Shown here: one piece after another, positions 16,806 to 33,849 of the stretch
Layout of the letters: the number at the start of each line of letters is the position of its first letter
Numbering within the stretch: the stretch's first letter is position 1
Source of the DNA: Sulfuritalea sp.
GTDB taxonomy: Bacteria; Pseudomonadota; Gammaproteobacteria; Burkholderiales; Rhodocyclaceae
Assembly (NCBI GenBank): GCA_030651305.1
Contig: JAUSCI010000037.1
Span: forward strand, 29,340-93,339
Length of the DNA: 64,000 nucleotides
Direction: 5' to 3'
Position numbers and translations under genes: made by a program
The notes under the pieces: generated by a model
Database searches by the model: none
What the model saw: the letters and a program-made list of their open reading frames with translations, nothing else
Told to the model about the DNA's origin: nothing

Positions 16806-17498
16806 ATGAAATTACTTTTTGTGGTTTTTGCGATGCTGTGTACCAGCGTCGCCTGGAGCGCCGACCCGGCCGTGGTGGTGCTTAAGGGCGAGGTCCTCGA
16901 AGTCAACGAAGTCGGGGCTTATACCTATGTGCGTCTCAAGACCGTGAATGGAGAACTCTGGGCGGCGGTTGGCAAGGCCCCGATCAAGAAAGGCAGCACG
17001 ATCACGATCGAGAACGCCGAGCTCATGGATAACTTCGAGAGCAAGACGCTGAAAAAGACCTTTCCCAAGATCTACTTTGGCAGCCTCCGCATCGCGCAGC
17101 CAACGGCCGCCGATGCCGCCGGCCAGGTGGCTGCGGCGCATGCAGCCGCACCCAGGACCGAGTATGCCGGCGACGTGAAGGTGCCGAAGGCCGCTGGTCC
17201 CGAAGCCCGCACGGTCGCGGAAATCGTGACCAGGACAGCCGAACTCAAGGACAGGACCGTTCTGGTCCGCGCCAAAGTGGTGAAGTACTCCAGTGCGATC
17301 ATGGGCAAGAACTGGATTCATCTGCGCGACGGATCGGGTTCGGCCGCCGACAATACCAACGACGTGACGGCAACCACCAAGGATCAAGCCAAGGTGGGGG
17401 ATGTGGTACTGGTGAAAGGCGTCGTGCGCAAGGACAAGGACTTCGGCGCAGGCTACGTCTATAAAGTGCTGATCGAGGATGCCACGCTGCAAATGTGA
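16806..17498 (+). CDS. Secreted NrfJ-like/OB-fold protein
   Basis: Signal peptide; VVLKGEVLEVNEVGAYTYVRLKTVNGELWAAVGKAPIKKGSTI; second OB-like half with IHLRDGSG. Confidence 0.65.
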   Translation: MKLLFVVFAMLCTSVAWSADPAVVVLKGEVLEVNEVGAYTYVRLKTVNGELWAAVGKAPIKKGSTITIENAELMDNFESKTLKKTFPKIYFGSLRIAQPTAADAAGQVAAAHAAAPRTEYAGDVKVPKAAGPEARTVAEIVTRTAELKDRTVLVRAKVVKYSSAIMGKNWIHLRDGSGSAADNTNDVTATTKDQAKVGDVVLVKGVVRKDKDFGAGYVYKVLIEDATLQM

Positions 17499-17942: not shown

Positions 17943-19181
17943 TCAGGGCAATGCCCGTACGATCAGGATCTTCGCGCTTTTGGTGCCAAGTTGCAGGGGA
18001 CCGCTCTCGCCAATCAAGTCGCCCGGCTGCGGCATGGCCTGACCGGACTTTGAAATGCGCGCCTCGATGTTCACTGCCGCGACACTGGAAAGCCTCATCT
18101 GCGGATCAAGCGCCAGGGAGTCGTCGAGCGTGAATGACAAGGGCAAGTCGGCGACACGTTTGCGCAAAACCGCGAGCGGCATGCGCGGGCCGTCGACGGC
18201 CCGCGCAAGAATGAACAGAGTGTCGTCAGGCTGTGCCTTGCCGGCCAATGCCGGCGCCAGCTTGACCGTGCCGCTGACGGCCTTGGTGGCGTCGGCGGCC
18301 ACCACGGGCGCCTGCGGCTGCGCCGCGGGCTGGGCGACCTCGAGCGGCGCCATGCCGGCCTTGCCGCGCGCCTCGGCCACCGCGCCGACGATTGATCTTG
18401 CTTCCTCCGATCCGGGCGGCAGGCCTTTCAGCAGTGTTTCCCAGTAACGGGCCGCCGTGACAAAGTCTTGGCGATTGAAGGCTGCCGTGCCGGCCAGGTT
18501 GAGGGCCGTGGCATTTTTCGGATCGGCGCCCAGCGCCCGATTGACCAGTTCCATCGGCTTGCCGTCAAAGTTCCCTTTCGCGCGAAACGCCAGCAGATCG
18601 GCATATTCGGTGAGCACGTTGGCATCGTTGCCGGCAATACCGACGACATGGTCGAAGGCTTTGTCGGCGTCGTCGAAACGCCCCATGGATTTGTAGGAAC
18701 GCGCCAGCATGATCCAGCCCTGGATGTCGTTCGGGCTGGTTTTCAGCCGCACCGCCAGTTTATCCACCATGTCCTCGAAGGCGGCGGAGGCGACCTGATG
18801 TTCGGCCGGCAGGGGCTTCATTGCGTCCGGAGCACCGAGCCAGAAATACAGCAGCGCGGCGCCGAGCGGCAACAGCAGGCCCAGTGCCAGCGCACTGTTT
18901 TTCTCCGGCGCCGCAGCAGCGGGCGGTTCATCGGCCGCGGCCGCGTCCTGCAGCAGACGCCGCTGCAATTCCTGGCGCGCCTGTTCGCAATCGCCGGCGG
19001 CGAGGCTGCCGGCAATGCGGTCGCTCTCCAGTTCGCCGAGCTGATCTCGGTAAATGGCGGCATTCAGCGCCTGGCGCGAGGTCCGCGAAGTGGATTGCCG
19101 GCCGCGTAGCAGCGGACGCAACAGCCAGGCCAGAACCAACACCGTCAGCAGCGCGGCGGCTCCCAGAAATTGCATGCTCAT
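17943..19181 (-). CDS. ccmI: Cytochrome c biogenesis protein CcmI
   Basis: N-terminal TM segments, NAAIYRDQLGELESDRIAG, TPR region; last gene of ccm operon. Confidence 0.85.
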   Translation of the reverse strand: MSMQFLGAAALLTVLVLAWLLRPLLRGRQSTSRTSRQALNAAIYRDQLGELESDRIAGSLAAGDCEQARQELQRRLLQDAAAADEPPAAAAPEKNSALALGLLLPLGAALLYFWLGAPDAMKPLPAEHQVASAAFEDMVDKLAVRLKTSPNDIQGWIMLARSYKSMGRFDDADKAFDHVVGIAGNDANVLTEYADLLAFRAKGNFDGKPMELVNRALGADPKNATALNLAGTAAFNRQDFVTAARYWETLLKGLPPGSEEARSIVGAVAEARGKAGMAPLEVAQPAAQPQAPVVAADATKAVSGTVKLAPALAGKAQPDDTLFILARAVDGPRMPLAVLRKRVADLPLSFTLDDSLALDPQMRLSSVAAVNIEARISKSGQAMPQPGDLIGESGPLQLGTKSAKILIVRALP

Positions 19182-19675
19182 TAGGTTTTCTCGCTCTCGT
19201 CTTGTTGCAGTAGGGCTTCGGCGCGTTGCCGATCTTCGGGGGACAGGATTGTCGCGTCATGCTCGACGCGCCCGCGGCGGCGGCGCAAATAAACCACCAG
19301 GCCGGCAACGGCGCCGGCCGCCAGGATGAACGGACCGAACCAGAGCAGCACGGTCGTTGCCTTCAGTGGCGGCCGGTAACGCACGAAATCGCCGTAACGG
19401 CTGACCATGAACTCCATGATTTCGTCATTGGATCTGCCCTGCTTGATCATGCCGCGAATCTCGCGGCGCAGATCTACAGCGAGTTCGGCGTGCGAGCCGG
19501 ACAGCGATTCGTTCTGGCAGACCAGGCAACGCAATTCGTCGGAAATTTCCACCATGCGCTTTTCCACTGCTTCGTCGGCGGCCAGCGGCGTCGCTTCCCT
19601 GGCCTGGGCCAATATGCCGCACAGGGCAAAGATCAGCGCGATGAGCAGCCTCGTCGCCTGGCGGGCATTGCTCAT
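19181..19675 (-). CDS. ccmH: Cytochrome c biogenesis protein CcmH/CcmL (thiol oxidoreductase subunit)
   Basis: LRCLVCQNESLSGSHAELAVDLRREIR; C-terminal TM; start at MSNARQ. Confidence 0.93.
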   Translation of the reverse strand: MSNARQATRLLIALIFALCGILAQAREATPLAADEAVEKRMVEISDELRCLVCQNESLSGSHAELAVDLRREIRGMIKQGRSNDEIMEFMVSRYGDFVRYRPPLKATTVLLWFGPFILAAGAVAGLVVYLRRRRGRVEHDATILSPEDRQRAEALLQQDESEKT

Positions 19676-20259
19676 GATTTTTCGAGTTCCTTGACCAGCG
19701 GCAGAATTTTCTTGTCCAGCGCATCGGACGTAAGCGGACCGATCTGCTTGTAGCGAATGATGCCGGTCTTGTCGATGACATAGGTCTCCGGTACGCCATA
19801 GACGCCGTAATCGATGCCGACGCGGCCGTCGATGTCGAGCGCCACCAGGGCGTAGGGATTGCCGCGCTCGGCCAGCCATGAGATGGCGCGGCTGCGCGTC
19901 ATTATGAGTTCGTCGTCCGCCGACAACTTGCTGCTGTCGATTGCGCCGTCTCCGCGAACTTCCTTGTAGCTCAATCCGACGATAGGCAGACGGCCCTGTC
20001 GAGCAAAGGCAACCAGCAGGGGATGTTCCGTGCGGCAGGAGACGCACCAGGACGACCAGACGTTCAGCAACCAGACCTTGCCCTGCATGTCCTTCGGCGA
20101 GAACGGTTTGTCGGCATTGGCGAGTTGCCGCAGATTGAACGTCGGCGCGGGCTTGCCGACCAGCGGCGAGGGCACTTCATGCGGATCCAGCGTCAGCCCG
20201 ATGCCCAGAAAGATGACCAGAATGACAAACAGGGCGACCGGAATCATGAAGCGCTTCAT
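19672..20259 (-). CDS. ccmG: Thiol:disulfide interchange protein DsbE/CcmG
   Basis: WLLNVWSSWCVSCRTEHPLL; GVYGVPETYVIDKTGIIRYKQIG; start at MKRFMIPVALF. Confidence 0.93.
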   Translation of the reverse strand: MKRFMIPVALFVILVIFLGIGLTLDPHEVPSPLVGKPAPTFNLRQLANADKPFSPKDMQGKVWLLNVWSSWCVSCRTEHPLLVAFARQGRLPIVGLSYKEVRGDGAIDSSKLSADDELIMTRSRAISWLAERGNPYALVALDIDGRVGIDYGVYGVPETYVIDKTGIIRYKQIGPLTSDALDKKILPLVKELEKS

Positions 20260-22220
20260 GCCGAAGCTCCCTGCAGCCCACCGGCAACAGGCGCCGCCAC
20301 CTTGGCACTGAGCCGATAGCGCCGGTCGCTGACGGCAACCAGCCCGCCCAGTGCCATCAGCAGGCAGCCACCCCAGATCCAGCCGACAAACGGCTTGTAA
20401 TGCACGCGCACGCTCCATGCGCCGATGCCGTCCTGCCCGCCGAGCGACTCGCCGAGAGAAACATAAATGTCGCGGAACACGTTGGAGTCGATGGCTGCCT
20501 CGGTCATCGGCATCGTCGATGAAAAATAGGCACGCTTTTCCGGATGGATCATGCGCAATACCTTGCCGTCCGTGGACAGTTCGAGATCGCCCACCGCGGC
20601 GCGATAGTTCGGCCCCATTGCCCCTCTAACTCCGAGCAGGCGCAGCGTATAACCGCCGACCTGCACGGTGTCATTGGGCGCCATGCGCACGTCTTTTTCT
20701 GTCTCATAGCCCTTGACCAGCGTCACGCCAATGACAAACACCGCGACGCCGATGTGGGCCAGTTGCATGCCCCAGAAGGCCCGCGGCACGCGCTTTCCGG
20801 CAGCACTGCGGTAGCGATCGCGGATCTGCGCCACGCCGCTGGCAATGATCCAGACTGCGAGCAGCAGGCCGAGACCCACCAGCGGCGTCCAGTTGCCGAA
20901 GACCAGCGGCACGCCGATGCCGGCGGCGACGGCGAGGGCAAGCCGCAGGCGCTTGACCAGATCGCCCGTCCTCGCCTGCTTCCAGCGGGCGAGCGGACCG
21001 ATGGCAATCAGAAACAGCAGTGGCGCCATCAGCGGCACGAACACCGCCTGAAAGTAGGGTGGCCCGACCGACAGCTTGCCCATGCCCAGCGCATCGATCA
21101 GCAGGGGATATAGCGTGCCGAGCAGTACGGAACCGCTGGCCACCACCAGCAGTACGTTGTTCACCAGCAGCAGGGTTTCCCGCGACATCAGCGCAAAGCG
21201 ACCGCCGAGGCCGACCTTGGGCGCGCGCCAGGCGAACAGCAGCAAGGAACTGCCGATGACCACGACCAGAAAGACCAGGATGAACAAGCCACGGCGCGGG
21301 TCGGTGGCGAAGGCGTGCACCGAGGTCAGCACTCCGGAACGCACCAGAAATGTACCGAGCAGGCTCAGGGAAAATGCGCCGATGGCCAGCAGCACGGTCC
21401 AATTCTTGAAGGCGCCGCGTTTATCCGTCACCGCCAGCGAATGGATCAATGCCGTACCGACCAGCCAGGGTATGAAGGAGGCATTCTCGACAGGATCCCA
21501 GAACCACCAGCCGCCCCAGCCCAGTTCATAGTAAGCCCACCAACTGCCGAGACCGACGCCGAGTGTAAGGAATATCCATGCCAGCACCGTCCACGGCCGC
21601 GACCAGCGCGCCCATGCAGCGTCGAGCTGTCCCGAGAGCAATGCGGCGATGGCGAAGGCAAAGGCGACAGAGAATCCGACATAGCCCATGTAGAGCATCG
21701 GCGGGTGAATCACCAGCCCCGGGTCCTGCAACAGGGGATTCAGGTCGCGGCCGTCGGCGGGAATGTCGATCAGTCGCTCGAATGGGCTGGAGGTGGCCAG
21801 AATGAACAGCAGCATGCCGCAGGAGACCAGGCCCAGAACTCCGATCACGCGCGCCACCATGGCTTCCGGCAAGGCGCGCGAAAACAGCGACACGGCCAGC
21901 GTCCAGGTCGCCAGCATAAGCACCCAGAGCATCAGGGATCCTTCGTGTCCACCCCACACAGCGGCGAAGCGGTACAAGGCGGGCAGCCTGGAATTGGAAT
22001 GCTCGGCAACGTAGCCCACCGAGAAATCATTCGCATAGAAAGCGTAGCTCAGGCAACCGAAGGCCAGCAGCAGCAACAGCCATTGCGCCTGCGCCGCCGG
22101 GCGCGCCAGGGCGATCCACGCACTGCGATTGCGATGTGCGCCAAGCAGCGGCATTACGCCCTGCACAATGGCCACCAGCAGGGCCAGCATTGTTGCAAAA
22201 TGTCCGAGTTCGGGGATCAT
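20256..22220 (-). CDS. ccmF: Heme lyase subunit CcmF
   Basis: WGGHEGSLMLWVL, GWGGWWFWDPVENASFIPWL, multi-TM. Confidence 0.96.
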   Translation of the reverse strand: MIPELGHFATMLALLVAIVQGVMPLLGAHRNRSAWIALARPAAQAQWLLLLLAFGCLSYAFYANDFSVGYVAEHSNSRLPALYRFAAVWGGHEGSLMLWVLMLATWTLAVSLFSRALPEAMVARVIGVLGLVSCGMLLFILATSSPFERLIDIPADGRDLNPLLQDPGLVIHPPMLYMGYVGFSVAFAFAIAALLSGQLDAAWARWSRPWTVLAWIFLTLGVGLGSWWAYYELGWGGWWFWDPVENASFIPWLVGTALIHSLAVTDKRGAFKNWTVLLAIGAFSLSLLGTFLVRSGVLTSVHAFATDPRRGLFILVFLVVVIGSSLLLFAWRAPKVGLGGRFALMSRETLLLVNNVLLVVASGSVLLGTLYPLLIDALGMGKLSVGPPYFQAVFVPLMAPLLFLIAIGPLARWKQARTGDLVKRLRLALAVAAGIGVPLVFGNWTPLVGLGLLLAVWIIASGVAQIRDRYRSAAGKRVPRAFWGMQLAHIGVAVFVIGVTLVKGYETEKDVRMAPNDTVQVGGYTLRLLGVRGAMGPNYRAAVGDLELSTDGKVLRMIHPEKRAYFSSTMPMTEAAIDSNVFRDIYVSLGESLGGQDGIGAWSVRVHYKPFVGWIWGGCLLMALGGLVAVSDRRYRLSAKVAAPVAGGLQGASA

Positions 22221-22301: not shown

Positions 22302-22505
22302 TCACGATGCGCTCTCCTCGCTCGCACTGTTCATGGCCCGATCCGCCGACAGTTGACGGCGCAGACCGCACACAACTTCGCTTCCATGCTTCCTGAGCAG
22401 GAAAGGCTCAATCAGCAAAGCCGCAGCCGTAACACCGAAGCTGCCCCAGACATAGAAGGCGTAGCCCCCCATGGCAAAAAAATCACTTGCACTATTCCAC
22501 TGCAT
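22302..22505 (-). CDS. ccmD: Heme exporter protein CcmD
   Basis: FFAMGGYAFYVWGSFGVTAAALLIEPFLLRK; overlaps ccmC. Confidence 0.88.
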   Translation of the reverse strand: MQWNSASDFFAMGGYAFYVWGSFGVTAAALLIEPFLLRKHGSEVVCGLRRQLSADRAMNSASEESAS

Positions 22506-23232
22506 GTTTCACCCATTCACTGTTTGGTTCGCGTTCCAGCATGATGGTGCGGGCCCGCATCAGAGACACCGCAATCGAATACATCCAGCAGGCGATGGCC
22601 ATCAGCAGCATGCCCAGCAGCATGGTTTTAGCCATGCTCGGCGCCTTGCTCATTGAGATCGACGCGCCCTGATGCAGGGTGTTCCACCATTTCACCGAAA
22701 AATAAATGATCGGCACGTTGATCACGCCCACCAGCGCCAGTATTGCGCCGGCCTTGTCCGCCCGGCGCGGCTCGTCGATGGCGGCCTGCAAGGCCATGAA
22801 GCCGAGATAGAGAAACAGCAGGATCAGTTCCGAGGTCAGGCGCGCATCCCACACCCACCAGGCGCCCCACATTGGCTTGCCCCACAGTGCGCCGGTCCAC
22901 AACGACAGAAAGGCGAACATCGCTCCGGTCGGCGCCACGGCGCTGGCCATCATCGACGACAGCCGGGTGTTCAGCGCCAGTCCCAGACCCGCCCAGAAGG
23001 CCATGATCAGATAGAGGAACATTGACAGCCACGAGGCCGGGACGTGAATGAAGATTATCCGATAGGCATCGCCCTGCGTGGCATCGGTCGGCGCCACGAA
23101 AAAGCCGGTCCACAGGCCGGCAATGCCGAACAGTACCGCCAGCATCACAAACCACGGCACCATTTTGCCGGCCAACGGATAGAAGCTCTGCGGCGATCCG
23201 TACCTGAACCAATGAATTACCCGGTTGCTCAT
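22492..23232 (-). CDS. ccmC: Heme exporter protein CcmC
   Basis: IIFIHVPASWLSMFLY, GKPMWGAWWVWDARLTSELIL. Confidence 0.95.
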   Translation of the reverse strand: MSNRVIHWFRYGSPQSFYPLAGKMVPWFVMLAVLFGIAGLWTGFFVAPTDATQGDAYRIIFIHVPASWLSMFLYLIMAFWAGLGLALNTRLSSMMASAVAPTGAMFAFLSLWTGALWGKPMWGAWWVWDARLTSELILLFLYLGFMALQAAIDEPRRADKAGAILALVGVINVPIIYFSVKWWNTLHQGASISMSKAPSMAKTMLLGMLLMAIACWMYSIAVSLMRARTIMLEREPNSEWVKHAVE

Positions 23233-23640
23233 GTTTCACTCTTGTTCATCGTTGTTCGCATTTGCGGACGAGTTTCAGCCATGGAAATGCAATCAAATGC
23301 AATCGACCGCGCTTCCGGCCGAAAGCCTCGCCCCGAAGAAGGGCGGTGGCGGAAGCACGCGGTCAAGATCGGAGATTGCAAGCATGTCGCAGGGAGCGCA
23401 AGCACGAACTGTGCGCGAGACCACGTGGGGTCTCTGGTTGATCACGCCGCGCCGGTTCAATTCATCGCGACCCAGGCCCTTTCGAGGGAGTCCGTGGCTT
23501 GTTAAAACTACCGCCCACCTTGGTGTTGCGCTGATTCGGGCCATGCGGCCCGCAACGACGCCAGAGGCGCGCCATTGCTCCCGCCGGAATTGCCTGGAGG
23601 GTGGATTCTTGCGCGGAAGGATTGCCGCAAGTGGCATGTG

Positions 23641-23658
23641 CGTTACAATTCCGTAACA
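23641..23658. promoter_or_regulatory. Palindrome copy 1: CGTTAC-AATTCC-GTAACA
   Basis: Same half-sites and 6-bp spacer as the 23976 and 24020 copies. Confidence 0.6.
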
Positions 23659-23975: not shown

Positions 23976-23993
23976 TGTTACGTTTTAGTAACA
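23976..23993. promoter_or_regulatory. Palindrome copy 2: TGTTAC-GTTTTA-GTAACA
   Basis: Perfect 6+6 bp inverted repeat. Confidence 0.65.
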
Positions 23994-24006: not shown

Positions 24007-24891
24007 ATGACCCCTAAAATGTTACGCTTATGTAACATTCGCAAGTCTCTGGCATGGGGCGCGTGGATCGCGGCCTGCCTTTTTTTGCTTGCGGCCGGAG
24101 CCCGCGCCGAGAACTCTTCGCGGCCCTTCCGCTTCGGGCTGCCACAAAGCATCTTTCACACTCAACACCTGCTGGTCGCCGACTGGCAACAATATCTCCA
24201 AGGCAAGCTGCGTCGCCCGGTGGAGTTTGTCAGTAGCCGAAAGTTCTCCGACTCCATAGTCCAGCTGCACGCCGCACGACTGGACTTTGCCTGGGTCACC
24301 GATTATCCCAGTCTCCGCCACGGGCTCCCGGTGCGCCTGTTGGTCGCCCCTCTCTACAAAGGCAAGCCATTTTTTACTTCCTATCTGATAGTCCCTGCCA
24401 GCGACACGCAAACCACGACATTGATGCAATTGAGGGGAAAGGTAATGGTGTTTGCCGACCCGACCTCGAACAGCCACATCGAACACCGCTACCTGTTGCT
24501 GAAAGCCGGCGAGGACCCGAAGCGGTTTTTCCGCAAGGTATTTTTCACCCATTCCCATCGCGAGAGCATTGACGCCGTGATATTGGGTCTCGCCGATGCG
24601 GTCGAAGTCGACAATTTCGTCTGGGATGCGATGGCGAAAGGCCGTCCCGAACTGACTCTGCAGACACGGACCGTCGCCCGCTCGCAGGAATATGGCGCAC
24701 CACCCATGGTTGCCAATCACTTCATCAGCAACGAGGAATTCGACAACATGCAGGGCGTGCTGATCGGTATGGCGCACGATCCCGAAGGCGTGAAACTGCT
24801 CAAACGGATGAATCTCGATGGGTTTGCCCCCGCCCAGGCAAGGTTCTACGAGCCTCTGCTGCAAATGAGGAAGGCCCTGGGCGAAGAATGA
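24007..24891 (+). CDS. PhnD-like periplasmic substrate-binding protein (AioX-type sensory binding protein)
   Basis: Signal peptide; FRFGLPQSIFHTQHLLVADWQQYLQGKLRRPVEFVSSRKFSDSIVQLHAARLDFAWV; GKVMVFADPTSNSH; start could be ATG 24007 or 24019. Confidence 0.8.
   Translation: MTPKMLRLCNIRKSLAWGAWIAACLFLLAAGARAENSSRPFRFGLPQSIFHTQHLLVADWQQYLQGKLRRPVEFVSSRKFSDSIVQLHAARLDFAWVTDYPSLRHGLPVRLLVAPLYKGKPFFTSYLIVPASDTQTTTLMQLRGKVMVFADPTSNSHIEHRYLLLKAGEDPKRFFRKVFFTHSHRESIDAVILGLADAVEVDNFVWDAMAKGRPELTLQTRTVARSQEYGAPPMVANHFISNEEFDNMQGVLIGMAHDPEGVKLLKRMNLDGFAPAQARFYEPLLQMRKALGEE
24020..24037. promoter_or_regulatory. Palindrome copy 3: TGTTAC-GCTTAT-GTAACA, overlapping the 5' end of the binding-protein gene
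   Basis: Perfect 6+6 bp inverted repeat, 44 bp from copy 2. Confidence 0.6.
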
Positions 24892-26360
24892 AAAGTCTCT
24901 TCGACTTGAGTTTCCGCATCAAGATTCCCCTGTGGGGCAGCCTCCTCATTGTCATGACCACGCTGGTCGTCTCCGGCTCGCTGATGCTGCGGACCTACGA
25001 AGATTTGCACGCAGACCTGCTGGCCAGTTCAACCCGTCTGAGTCAGCGCCTGGCCGAACTCCTGGTTTTGCCCCTGCTGGAAGACGATGTCTGGCAATCC
25101 TTTGAAATCATCAATGCGCCCCTGGTTGATTTCAATCTATTGGAAAACTTCGTCCCGAAGGCCATCGTGGTCCTCGACAACGAGTTGCAGGTTGCCGTAT
25201 CCACCCGACCCAAGGCGTTCCCGCTGCAATCGAGAATATTTCAGACCAGTCCGGAGTATGCAGCCCTGGTCAAGCGCATTGCCGCATCAAAAAACGTTGT
25301 GACCCAGGTCATTAATATGCAGGATGCGAAAAACATCTTCATCGCCGCACCGATCGCCGACGAAGGCCGCCGCTATGGCACGCTGGTCGTGATCCATTCC
25401 AAGGACGTACTGAAGCCACGCTTCCTGAGCATTGCACAGAGCGGGGGCATGGTCGGGCTGCTGGTGCTGGCGCTGTTGTTGCCGATCAACTGGTACTGGG
25501 GGCAGCGTCTGTCGCGTCCGCTGCTGATGATCGCCGAATGGATGAACCGCATCGACCACGGCCCAAGCCAGAAAGTTGCCGAGAACGTCTATCCGTACGA
25601 GGACGAACTGGGACAGCTTTTCGAGGCCTATCGCCGCATGCTGCAGGAACAGGATGCCCGCGCTGCGCTGGAACAGCAGGTCATTCATTCCGAGCGCCTG
25701 GCGGCCGTCGGCCGCCTTGCGGCCGGAGTGGCCCACGAGATCAACAATCCGCTGGGAGGAATGCTCACCGCCATCGATACGTTGAAGAGTCACGGCCAGA
25801 ACAGCCACAGCGAATTTGATGCGAGAACTGCCAAGACGATCTCCCTGATCGAGCGCGGCCTGGCCCAGATCAAGGAGACCGTGAGTGCGCTGCTGGTCGA
25901 GGCCCGCACCAAGAACCGCAATATCGAACCCCAGGATTTCGAGGACATCCGCAATCTGGTGATTCATCAGGCACAAAAGAAAGCAATCACCTTCGACTGG
26001 CAATCAAGCGTTGGCGAGTCCCTGCCTGTTCAGGCCAATCCCGTGCGACAGTTGCTGATCAATCTTCTGCTCAATGCAATTCAGGCGGCGCAGCACAAGG
26101 GACTGGTCGCTTGTTCCATCGCTGCGAGTGACGGCGAATTGCACTTGAGCGTCGAGAACGACGGCAAGCAAATGACCGCTGAGCAGGCGGCGCATCTCTA
26201 TGAGCCGTTTTCGCCGCTGAGTGAAAGTGGCCACGGCCTGGGCCTGTGGATCACTTATCAGATCGTGCAGCAACTCAGCGGCCACATTCATCTGGACCGC
26301 AACAATGGTCGCATGCGCTTCAGCGTGATGCTCCCATTCAGCGAAGGTGCTCCGGCATGA
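24888..26360 (+). CDS. Membrane sensor histidine kinase
   Basis: Two TM segments around a periplasmic domain, HAMP-like region, VAHEINNPLGGM H-box, LLINLLLNAIQAA, GHGLGLWITYQIV; overlaps neighbour genes. Confidence 0.92.
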   Translation: MKSLFDLSFRIKIPLWGSLLIVMTTLVVSGSLMLRTYEDLHADLLASSTRLSQRLAELLVLPLLEDDVWQSFEIINAPLVDFNLLENFVPKAIVVLDNELQVAVSTRPKAFPLQSRIFQTSPEYAALVKRIAASKNVVTQVINMQDAKNIFIAAPIADEGRRYGTLVVIHSKDVLKPRFLSIAQSGGMVGLLVLALLLPINWYWGQRLSRPLLMIAEWMNRIDHGPSQKVAENVYPYEDELGQLFEAYRRMLQEQDARAALEQQVIHSERLAAVGRLAAGVAHEINNPLGGMLTAIDTLKSHGQNSHSEFDARTAKTISLIERGLAQIKETVSALLVEARTKNRNIEPQDFEDIRNLVIHQAQKKAITFDWQSSVGESLPVQANPVRQLLINLLLNAIQAAQHKGLVACSIAASDGELHLSVENDGKQMTAEQAAHLYEPFSPLSESGHGLGLWITYQIVQQLSGHIHLDRNNGRMRFSVMLPFSEGAPA

Positions 26361-27709
26361 AAGCCCATCGTATCTGCCTGATCGAAGACGACGAAATCAT
26401 GGGCGAGGCAGTCTCCGACCGCTTTGGCCTGGAAGGCTTCAAGTGCGCCTGGTTCCAGACCGGGGCAGCCGCACGCAAGTCGCTGCTGAAGGACAAATAT
26501 AACATTGTCATCAGCGACATCATGTTGCCGGATTGCGACGGCGAGCAGTTGTTCGAGGAGTTGCGCGACGCCGGAGTGGAGTTGCCGCCCTACATCTTCA
26601 TCACCGGCTATGGAGCGATCGATCGTGCCGTCCGCCTGCTCAAGCTGGGCGCCGAAGATTACATGACCAAGCCGCTCGACATTCGCGAATTGATCGAAAA
26701 AATAAGGACCATCTGTGCCAAGGCGCATCCCGCCATCGACAGCAGCGACGACAAGCCGGTGCTTGGTATCTCCAGCGCAATGCGCAACATCGAAGCCATG
26801 CTCCGGCGCCTGGCGGTAGACAGAACATCGGTCCTCGTCACCGGTGAATCCGGCGTTGGCAAGGAAGAGGTTGCGCGCGCGCATCACCGCCAACGCGATC
26901 CGGACTGGCAGCGCCCGTTCATCGCGGTCAATTGCGGCGCGATTTCCGAAAACCTGATCGAGGCGGAACTGTTCGGCTACGTCAAGGGTGCCTATACCGG
27001 CGCGATCCGCGATAAAAAGGGCTATTTCGAGCAAGCAGCAGGCGGCACCCTGTTCCTCGACGAAATCGGCGACATGCCGCTATCCATGCAGGTCAAGCTG
27101 TTGCGCGCAATCCAGGAGCGGAAGATAGTTCGCGTCGGCAGCGAAACAACGATTCCCGTGGATATCCATCTGATCTGCGCCACCAACAAGAACCTCAAGA
27201 AAATGGTCGAGACCGGCGATTTTCGCGAGGACTTGTACTATCGCATCAACGTCGTAGAGATCAATGTGCCGCCCTTGCGCGAGCGCAAGGAAGACATCCT
27301 CTGGCTGACGGCAATGCTGCTCGATAGCGAAGCCGTGCAGCACGGTCGCACGCGTCGCGCCCTAAGCGCAGCCGCCGAACAGTCCCTGCTCGACTACCCC
27401 TGGCCCGGCAATATCCGCGAGCTCAAGCACATCCTGGAACGGGCTTGCGTCCTGTCGAGCCAAGCGGTACTGACTCCCGAATCCTTCTTCGACAAGCCGC
27501 AGGAAATGGCGAAGCCGACCGAATTTTCTTCGCTCAACGAGTATCTCCAGGACTACGAGCGCCGCTACATTGCGCAAATACTGGAAAGCAAGGAAGGCCG
27601 TATTGCCGATACCGCCACAGCGCTCGGCATCAGCCGCAAGACCCTCTGGGAAAAGATGCGAAAACTGAATCTGCCCGCAAAAAATGGATTGCCCGATGGG
27701 CCTGACTGA
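26357..27709 (+). CDS. NtrC-family sigma54-dependent response regulator
   Basis: REC domain; GESGVGKE Walker A; GAYTGA loop; GTLFLDEIGDMPLSMQVKLLRAIQE; C-terminal HTH GRIADTATALGISRKTLWEKMRKL; start at MKAHRICLIEDDE. Confidence 0.95.
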   Translation: MKAHRICLIEDDEIMGEAVSDRFGLEGFKCAWFQTGAAARKSLLKDKYNIVISDIMLPDCDGEQLFEELRDAGVELPPYIFITGYGAIDRAVRLLKLGAEDYMTKPLDIRELIEKIRTICAKAHPAIDSSDDKPVLGISSAMRNIEAMLRRLAVDRTSVLVTGESGVGKEEVARAHHRQRDPDWQRPFIAVNCGAISENLIEAELFGYVKGAYTGAIRDKKGYFEQAAGGTLFLDEIGDMPLSMQVKLLRAIQERKIVRVGSETTIPVDIHLICATNKNLKKMVETGDFREDLYYRINVVEINVPPLRERKEDILWLTAMLLDSEAVQHGRTRRALSAAAEQSLLDYPWPGNIRELKHILERACVLSSQAVLTPESFFDKPQEMAKPTEFSSLNEYLQDYERRYIAQILESKEGRIADTATALGISRKTLWEKMRKLNLPAKNGLPDGPD

Positions 27710-27991
27710 TGGCGATCGAAATGCATGAACGCCCGATCATGGCCTGCACAGCCTGCCTGTCGCAACAGTTCCATCGTTTCAAGACGCCCGGAATCTGCGG
27801 TCCGCCTCACGTTCACCCGTCCGGTTCGGGCCAGGTTGCGTGAATAGAGACTGTCCATGAAGCCTGTTCTGTCCACTTGTGTTTTCGCATCAAACCTGTC
27901 GCGAACCGGCGGGAAAATACCAAGAAAGCCTGTAACTTTTCAGCTTTTAATCCGTTATATGCATGTCACTTACTCACATAGGTACCCAATC

Positions 27992-28324
27992 ATGAACAAA
28001 CTGAAAATGACGCTGCTTGCCCTTACGTCGCTTGCCCTGACTTCCTCCGCCGCATTTGCGCTCGACGATGCGGGCAGGGATGCCTTGATGAAGGACAGCA
28101 AATGCACGAAGTGTCATGCCGCCGACAAGAAGAAGGATGGTCCTGCGTACAAGGAAACCGCCGCCAAGTACAAGGGCAAGGCGGACGCCGAGAAGAAGCT
28201 GTTCACGCACCTGACGACCGCACCCGAGATCGAGGTCGACGGCGCGAAAGAAAAGCACGTCAAGATCAAGACCACCAATGAAGCCGACATCAAGGCCGTT
28301 ATTGCCTGGATTCTGGCGCAGTAA
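27992..28324 (+). CDS. Small secreted class I c-type cytochrome
   Basis: Signal peptide; CTKCH heme motif; PAYKETAAKYKGK. Confidence 0.9.
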   Translation: MNKLKMTLLALTSLALTSSAAFALDDAGRDALMKDSKCTKCHAADKKKDGPAYKETAAKYKGKADAEKKLFTHLTTAPEIEVDGAKEKHVKIKTTNEADIKAVIAWILAQ

Positions 28325-28347
28325 GCAACAGCGGCAGCTAACAGGGT

Positions 28348-28384
28348 CCGCCATCCTGCAGGTCGGGATGGCGGGCTTTTTTTT
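28348..28384 (+). terminator. Rho-independent terminator after the cytochrome gene
   Basis: CCGCCATCC...GGATGGCGG 9-bp stem followed by T8. Confidence 0.9.
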
Positions 28385-28580: not shown

Positions 28581-28880
28581 CTATTTTTCAGGAATCACCG
28601 CGACCTTTTCGATAAACGTCATGTTGGGAAAGGTACGCTCGAGATCATTGCTGCGGAAGTTGAGCATCATGAAGCCTTCCTCAAAGCGAATCTGATCACC
28701 CGGCTTCAGGTTGATCAGGTCCGAGGCAAGCCAAAAACTCTTGCCATCCCGGATGATTTCAATATACGTGTAGCTCAAGGTGCTCATGGAACTGACGACT
28801 TTGGCTTCGGCAGCCATGACGGCGGACATCATGACGGCGGACAGGACGATGCCGCAAAGCAGGCGCGAGATGAATTTCAT
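28581..28880 (-). CDS. Secreted NrfJ-like small protein
   Basis: MKFISRLLCGIVLSAVMMSAVMAAEAK signal peptide; YTYIEIIRDGKSFWLASDLINLKPGDQIRF matches the first half of the 16806 product. Confidence 0.65.
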   Translation of the reverse strand: MKFISRLLCGIVLSAVMMSAVMAAEAKVVSSMSTLSYTYIEIIRDGKSFWLASDLINLKPGDQIRFEEGFMMLNFRSNDLERTFPNMTFIEKVAVIPEK

Positions 28881-29054
28881 GGACATTCCAATGGGGTGGG
28901 TGGCTGCGGAAATGCCGCAATGATACATCCGAGCGGCGGTGCCAAGGTTGCCGATGTAGGGAATCACGCCACGGCGATGACCGAAAACCGGGGAACGATC
29001 GTCGTCGCGCGGCTCATTCAGCCGCAGTATCTTGCGGACGCAACACAGGCGCAG

Positions 29055-32105: not shown

Positions 32106-33849
32106 CCTATCTTCCTCAGTTGGCCGTCTTGAAACTGTTGCAAACTGAGCGCTGACGAGGGTTTTGGGCGAACAGGGAAGGTCACCCGATGGGTGAAGCG
32201 GGATTTGAGAAAAACGCGCTGGTAAGAGCGGTTGGCGAGGCGATTGCGGAGCAGATGAGAGAAGCGAGTGACCTGCGCGTCAGCACACCCGGTGGTCGGT
32301 TTCAAGTGCGGTGGGATAAGAACGGCAGCGCCAGCGCCTTGGGCCAGTTGGCGTTCTTTGCGGAGTTCCTGGAAGTACCGGGGCTGTTTGAGCGCTGGGT
32401 CAAAAGTTGCCCGCTGGCCTACACCAGCGGCAATACTCCGGAGGTAGCTGACGTACTGGGCACCCGGCTGCTCTCGATTCTTGATGGCCAGAGACGCTAT
32501 GCGCACGTGGCCGGGTTGCGCGGTGACGCGGTGGCCCCGCAACTGCTGGGCATGACCCAGATCATCAGCGACGAAAGCCTGCGCCGAGCGCTGAAACATC
32601 TCGCGCCCTGCATCGGCAAACGCTGTCCTGAGGACGAGCGCATTCGACGCGAAGCCCAATTGACCAAGAGCACCGAGTGGATGGATACCGCGCTGAAGGA
32701 AAGCATCCACGAAGCGCTGCGCACCGGCTGGATACTCGATTGTGACACCACGATCAAGCTGCTCTACGGTCATCAGGACGGCGCTGAAATCAGCTACAAC
32801 CCGACCAAACCGAAGCGTCCCAGTCATGCCATCCACACCTACTGGATCGCCAACATGCGCCTGGTGCTCGATGCCGAAGTTCAAGGCCGCAAGGCCCATG
32901 CCGCCAAACACAGCCTGTCGCGACTGATCGTTATCCTCAAGACACTCCCACCTGAGCAGCGTCCCCGGTTGGTCCGTGGCGACAATTCCTTTGGTAACGA
33001 GCCGCTCATGATCGAACTCGAAGCGATTGGTCAGACGTATCTGTTCAAGCTGCGCCAAAGCCCCGGCGTCAAGCGTCTGATTGAGCGACACTGGTCGCGG
33101 ACGGACTGGAAGGATATCGGTGAGGGGTATCACGCCGTCGAAGCGGAGCTTGCCTTGTCCGGTTGGAGCCGTGCGCGACGAGTGGTCGTGGTACGCCGAG
33201 CCGTGAAGGACACGCTCGTGGCGGAGACGAAGAAGATGAGCAAGCGGGAGAAGCGCCAGCAACGTCTGCACTTTGCCGATCCGCTGCAACCGGTGAAGCT
33301 CTGGGAATACGCCGTCCTGGTGACCAATTCCGACTACAATCCGGACGCCATCGGTCAGCTCTATCGGGATCGTTCGGATTGCGAGAACGGCTTTGATGAG
33401 TTGAAGAACCAGTGGGGCTGGGGCGGCTACACGACCCAGGATATGGAACGCTGCAATCTCTCGGCGCATGCGGTGGCCCTGATTTACAACTGGTGGAGTT
33501 GGCATGTGCGACTGGCACACCCGAAGACGCGGCTGGAGGCCATTACCTCTCGACCCTTGTTGTTGGCGGGAGTGGCGCGATTGACTCAGCATGCCGGTCA
33601 ATCACGGCTTCTACTGGCATTGACCCATGCCGCAGGTGATCAGATCAAAGCCATGATTGCCAATATACGCATGGGCTTGGACGCCGTTCTCGCATCTGCG
33701 CCTCAGCTGACCAAACCGGAGCGATGGAGGGCCCTCGTGCGTTACATCATTCAAAAAATCATCGCGGCCAAACCGAAAAATCACTCGCCACCGGCCCTCT
33801 CGCCGTCAGTTTCGCTTCTCATCCCACCGGGGTAACAGAGGAAATTAGG
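32106..33849 (+). mobile_element. IS1380-family-like insertion sequence
   Basis: Ends CCTATCTTCCTCAGTTGGCC and (reverse complement) CCTAATTTCCTCTGTTACCC match at 15 of 20; encloses one intact transposase; no clear target duplication seen. Confidence 0.75.
32189..33835 (+). CDS. IS1380-family-like transposase
   Basis: DCDTTIKLLYGHQDGAEISYNP, RGDNSFGNE, YRDRSDCENGFDELKNQWGWGGYTT. Confidence 0.85.
   Translation: MGEAGFEKNALVRAVGEAIAEQMREASDLRVSTPGGRFQVRWDKNGSASALGQLAFFAEFLEVPGLFERWVKSCPLAYTSGNTPEVADVLGTRLLSILDGQRRYAHVAGLRGDAVAPQLLGMTQIISDESLRRALKHLAPCIGKRCPEDERIRREAQLTKSTEWMDTALKESIHEALRTGWILDCDTTIKLLYGHQDGAEISYNPTKPKRPSHAIHTYWIANMRLVLDAEVQGRKAHAAKHSLSRLIVILKTLPPEQRPRLVRGDNSFGNEPLMIELEAIGQTYLFKLRQSPGVKRLIERHWSRTDWKDIGEGYHAVEAELALSGWSRARRVVVVRRAVKDTLVAETKKMSKREKRQQRLHFADPLQPVKLWEYAVLVTNSDYNPDAIGQLYRDRSDCENGFDELKNQWGWGGYTTQDMERCNLSAHAVALIYNWWSWHVRLAHPKTRLEAITSRPLLLAGVARLTQHAGQSRLLLALTHAAGDQIKAMIANIRMGLDAVLASAPQLTKPERWRALVRYIIQKIIAAKPKNHSPPALSPSVSLLIPPG

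Follow-up and report, generated by a model that had tools for sequence, protein, structure and literature searches.

The window, a stretch of 64,000 nucleotides from a draft Sulfuritalea sp. genome of 82 contigs (GCA_030651305.1), carries three plus-strand genes that we designate X, S and R. X (24007–24891) encodes a periplasmic AioX/ArrX-like binding protein with a signal-type helix at its N terminus and a match to Pfam Phosphonate-bd (PF12974, E 2e-44). S (24888–26360) encodes a membrane sensor histidine kinase, in which a domain search found HisKA, HATPase and a sub-threshold HAMP domain, and R (26357–27709) encodes an NtrC-type response regulator with receiver, sigma54 activator and Fis-type helix-turn-helix domains. 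S and R are 76% and 84% identical, respectively, to their orthologs at another locus, L151. The ATG at 26357 is the likely start of R; the start given in the list of open reading frames, 26246, represents an upstream extension. Overlaps of 4 bp occur at both joints (X/S and S/R). The identical X-S-R order, with full-length homology, was found again in dozens of other loci, which places the trio far above a chance arrangement. A scan of the open reading frames in the window revealed neither arsenite oxidase nor ABC partner genes near the trio.

When X was compared with solved structures by phmmer, AioX was the best match (E 7e-38), together with ArrX; PtxB and PhnD were far behind. An AlphaFold2 model of X (pLDDT 87.9) was nearest to AioX (TM 0.89) in Foldseek, and then to ArrX. 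Against the PhnD equivalog profile, X scored 65 bits, the cut-off being 261. Because AioX and ArrX are the best matches, the model resembles them and the PhnD equivalog score is low, X belongs, by sequence and predicted fold, to the sensory AioX/ArrX/ArxX subfamily taken broadly, and is encoded in the same cluster as a kinase and a sigma54 regulator. These results agree with an earlier sequence-only reading of the locus, which had described three overlapping genes for an exported binding protein, a kinase and an NtrC-type regulator, had seen no arsenite oxidase or ABC partners close by, and had proposed an AioXSR-type sensory module instead of a transporter part, with structure prediction as one way to check it.

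AioX binds arsenite through Cys106, in a pocket formed by Tyr88, Cys106, Tyr131, Ser161, Ser163, His192 and Asp210 (PMC5908839). X has F80, T98 and F123 where AioX has Y88, C106 and Y131, and keeps S154, N155, S156, H184 and D202, the AioX positions S161, S163, H192 and D210 being conserved. Mature X contains no cysteine. The L151 ortholog shares Phe, Thr and Phe with X at the three altered positions. Around the trio, the window showed no arsenic molybdoenzyme operon. X was rejected as a standard arsenite or arsenate sensor because the pocket residues differ; as judged from its sequence, it is no standard arsenic sensor. Cys106 needs to be checked in PhnD/AioX-like sensors before they are annotated as arsenic sensors.

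XSR loci were gathered from related genomes, plasmids and named contigs; the sampling is uneven and some contigs end within loci. Partner genes carry the label of their best BLAST hit against a small, self-assembled reference set. Cys106 was kept in 98 of 111 X proteins and was Ser or Thr in the other 13. All 98 Cys-type sensors keep the AioX residues at the Tyr88, Cys106 and Tyr131 positions. Most XSR loci face a molybdoenzyme operon of the arr, arx, aio or Azoarcus KH32C-like type. Within the flanks fetched, 83 of the 98 Cys-type X had a molybdoenzyme as their nearest partner, and for none was Mtr or ccm the nearest. The 13 Cys106-less X comprise nine that adjoin MtrAB, two that adjoin multiheme cytochromes (one with ccm genes), the window X and its ortholog, which lies at a contig end. 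L064 and L243, which are among the relatives nearest to the window trio, face mtrA-mtrB. L065 faces genes for a multiheme-cytochrome b protein and a cytochrome c, mtrA, mtrB and ccm genes, and L152 faces genes for a cytochrome c, MtrA, MtrB and a multiheme-cytochrome b protein of the L065 type, with ccm genes; we read the multiheme-cytochrome b protein as CbcL/MtoC-like. In the loci tested, MtrA scored above the TIGR03508 cut-off and MtrB above those of TIGR03509 and PF11854.

In a tree of concatenated X, S and R from which the Tyr88 and Cys106 columns were left out, the 13 Cys106-less loci grouped together (92/86), and the window and L151 grouped with the MtrAB-adjacent L064 and L243 (100/100). 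In a tree of X only, the Cys106-less group did not come out as a single split, though it did so in 72% of the bootstraps. Cys106 was probably lost in a single ancestral event, so that the 13 loci represent one correlated change and are not independent. The pocket varies further inside the Cys106-less lineage, with differences in L064 and L243 at the positions of Tyr88, Tyr131, Ser163 and His192. A single shared ligand is therefore not implied, and the ligand may, to judge from these residues, differ between branches. From these comparisons, we consider it reasonably probable that the trio is an AioX-S-R-type sensor of a distinct, Cys106-less lineage whose usual target would be an outer-membrane electron conduit and no arsenic molybdoenzyme. 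The usual conduit of the lineage appears to be MtrA/MtrB, joined in many loci by a small cytochrome c, a quinone oxidoreductase of the CbcL/MtoC type and ccm genes.

Three palindromes of the form TGTTAC-N6-GTAACA flank X; the chance expectation in the window, at two mismatches or fewer, is 0.27. Operator 1 (CGTTACAATTCCGTAACA, 23641–23658, one mismatch) faces the ccm genes described below. Operator 2 (TGTTACGTTTTAGTAACA, 23976–23993) has an equivalent in L151, L064 and L243, and operator 3 (TGTTACGCTTATGTAACA, 24020–24037) overlaps the first codons of X at a position roughly conserved in the same three loci. For AioR, the literature gives GTT-N10-AAC as the site and places a footprint at GTTCGGATTTCCGAAC (PMC5335332); the putative sites in the window fit this pattern. 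Nine intact GTTAC-N6-GTAAC cores are present in the genome, three at the window trio and six at a second XSR set on contig C69; as to a genome-wide regulon beyond these two loci, no intact core was listed elsewhere in the genome. The mtr operon has a sigma54-like promoter upstream at eight of the nine mtr loci (P of 0.04 or less against shuffles for each of the eight). Together with the operators, these promoters support an AioR-like activation of mtr. The operator core was absent at the Cys106-less mtr loci L218 and L226, though both adjoin MtrAB. No sigma54 site in the window beat chance: a weak sigma54-like site on the minus strand between operator 1 and ccmC (TGGCGCGCCTCTGGCG, 23559–23574) has a P of 0.19. 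As for the other mtrA genes of the window genome, those on C20 and C36 have no operator or strong sigma54 site upstream, and the promoter of that on C25 is off-contig.

The second XSR set, on C69, is of the Cys type and faces an arrAB-like operon. The large subunit of this operon matches ArrA with 966 bits, below the 1600-bit cut-off, and ArrA in the PDB with 3e-257. A further strong PF12974 protein, the third in the genome, is encoded on C47. At the C69 locus (L011, 8675–14421), operator cores also lie upstream of genes that encode CZB and GGDEF/EAL-type proteins, which suggests that c-di-GMP or chemosensory genes belong to the arsenate regulon. The Fis-type recognition helix of R is nearly identical to that of the ArrR-type regulator on C69, so cross-talk between the two regulators would be possible. 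X could then act as an accessory arsenic sensor that detects an arsenic oxyanion, for example arsenate, with R co-controlling the arr operon in trans through the shared operator. The nearly shared helix, an operator core common to both XSR loci and listed nowhere else in the genome, and the arrAB-like operon itself are in line with this model. Nevertheless, we regard it as unlikely: Y88F, C106T and Y131F alter residues kept in all 98 Cys-type sensors, the arr locus already has a complete XSR of its own, and the nearest relatives with readable flanks adjoin mtrAB, not arr.

A second ccm set lies beside the trio on the minus strand. It consists of ccmC (22492–23232; TIGR01191), which is the second copy in the genome, a ccmD-like small open reading frame (22302–22505; CcmD assigned by eye), and ccmF, ccmG-like, ccmH-like and ccmI genes (17943–22220), G and H being assigned by similarity to the set on C67 and by eye. 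The set is without ccmA, ccmB and ccmE, the last of these being absent between ccmC and ccmF; the complete ccm operon, the genus copy, is on C67. Of 31 genus members, the window genome alone has two ccmC genes. The copy in the window groups with the ccmC of the mtr-ccm locus L176 (98/84), a locus that itself has no adjacent XSR. Neither mtrAB nor ccmAB is present beside the window trio. An uncharacterised protein encoded at 16806–17498 is conserved (61%) in Sulfuricella sp. T08, likewise next to ccm genes. Downstream of R, a plus-strand gene (27989–28324) encodes a monoheme cytochrome c (PF00034), with conserved synteny and 80% identity in L151. It is probably the last gene of the XSR transcript, if co-transcription is as the arrangement suggests, and an intrinsic-terminator-like stem-loop, a consensus match only, follows it (28343–28379, plus strand). 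A small protein without a family match (28581–28967) is 46% identical in the L151 locus. Because the second ccm set adjoins the trio and the cytochrome gene is kept downstream of R in the ortholog, we infer that both are likely local targets of R.

Such a reduced locus could also be a stranded remnant, that is, a module that came with an mtr-ccm operon, lost its target and now regulates nothing important. The missing mtrAB, ccmA, ccmB and ccmE, the lack of a convincing sigma54 promoter, the complete ccm operon at C67 and a fall in GC content at about 23.2 kb all fit this explanation. Against it, the reading frames of X, S and R are all intact, the ortholog keeps the operators and the synteny of the cytochrome c gene, and dN/dS versus the ortholog is low for X, S, R and the cytochrome (about 0.1–0.3), a value that averages the whole divergence and thus speaks against an old pseudogene while being blind to recent loss or relaxation of function. 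On balance, we find a remnant improbable. The stretch from operator 1 to ccmC was searched by tblastn and blastx against the reference set for traces of mtr; this gave a weak 22-residue MtrA stretch (E 0.2) and otherwise chance matches. The fall in GC is from ~64% to ~57%, near 23.2 kb; the region 23000–47600, which contains XSR, a transposase gene (32189–33835) and glycosyltransferase-like genes, could be an island that was acquired.

That X is an ordinary PhnD/PtxB transporter component beside an unrelated two-component system is very improbable, and X was rejected as a transporter PhnD on profile scores and gene context: PhnD-superfamily Pfam and TIGR profiles do match X, but it reaches 65 of the 261 bits of the PhnD equivalog cut-off, no ABC genes were seen nearby in the window, the X-S-R linkage is conserved across dozens of genomes, and both sequence and structure are nearest to AioX.

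The most likely reading of the window trio, on sequence evidence, is an XSR sensor that has been re-purposed for extracellular-electron-transfer genes, at a reduced locus without mtrAB or a convincing sigma54 promoter. The sequence-only reading had left the target process unnamed, and this can now be narrowed, as the Cys106-less lineage adjoins MtrAB porin-cytochrome and ccm genes. Its comparison with AioXSR stands, but it mentioned neither the change of Cys106 to Thr and of both pocket tyrosines to Phe nor the second, Cys-type XSR that has the same operator beside an arrAB-like operon in the same genome.

A further possibility, to which we give about an even chance, is that an AioXSR-type lineage changed both ligand and target. 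It would respond to a periplasmic signal other than arsenic and, by way of AioR-type operators and sigma54 promoters, switch on entire operons for extracellular electron transfer (quinone oxidoreductase, cytochrome c and MtrAB) together with dedicated ccm genes. In the mechanism proposed for the main reading, X would bind a periplasmic ligand other than arsenite and, when loaded, trigger S; the phosphorelay would then run to R, and phosphorylated R would bind the GTTAC-N6-GTAAC palindromes. With sigma54 RNA polymerase, R would bring about transcription of the divergent operon, and via the palindromes where X begins it would control its own operon. In the window genome, R would act on the second ccm set and on the downstream cytochrome c gene.

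The trio shares its gene order, the fold of the binding protein (TM 0.89), an NtrC-type regulator and the GTT-N10-AAC operator with the arsenite system AioX-AioS-AioR of Rhizobium NT-26 and Agrobacterium, whereas X lacks Cys106, has Phe in place of Tyr88 and Tyr131, and has no aioBA beside it. With ArrXSR and ArxXSR it has in common the superfamily, the operator core and the divergent arrangement, and an Arr-type set is present in the window genome as well. Unlike the window trio, these systems adjoin arrAB or arx molybdoenzyme operons and, in the homologs examined, keep Cys106. The MtrAB/MtoAB/PioAB porin-cytochrome systems, with quinone oxidoreductases of the CbcL/MtrH/MtoC type, are the divergent genes in most Cys106-less relatives, whereas the window locus itself has no mtrAB. 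In the literature searched, we found no report of an AioXSR-type regulator of mtr/mto (MtrAB/MtoAB/PioAB) genes. If the proposed reading is correct, it provides a candidate input signal and regulator for the porin-cytochrome conduits of Rhodocyclaceae, Sulfuricellaceae and related betaproteobacteria, and an example of a sensor family that switched its target from arsenic enzymes to electron export. Cys106-less XSR systems may reveal the way in which certain bacteria choose when an outer-membrane electron conduit is used.

Some Cys-type loci had features of their own. An Azoarcus KH32C-like molybdoenzyme, ~80–90% identical across genomes, occurred repeatedly with XSR (L014, L066, L068, L079, L083, L099 and L101). 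The Cys-type X at L070, L071, L073, L074, L076, L078 and L157 has Ser in place of Asp210, and several of these loci adjoin another divergent type of molybdoenzyme. In Sideroxydans and Gallionellaceae MAGs (L214, 9914–13247; L215, 3861–7641), the gene after a Cys-type X encodes a GGDEF-type protein in place of the histidine kinase.
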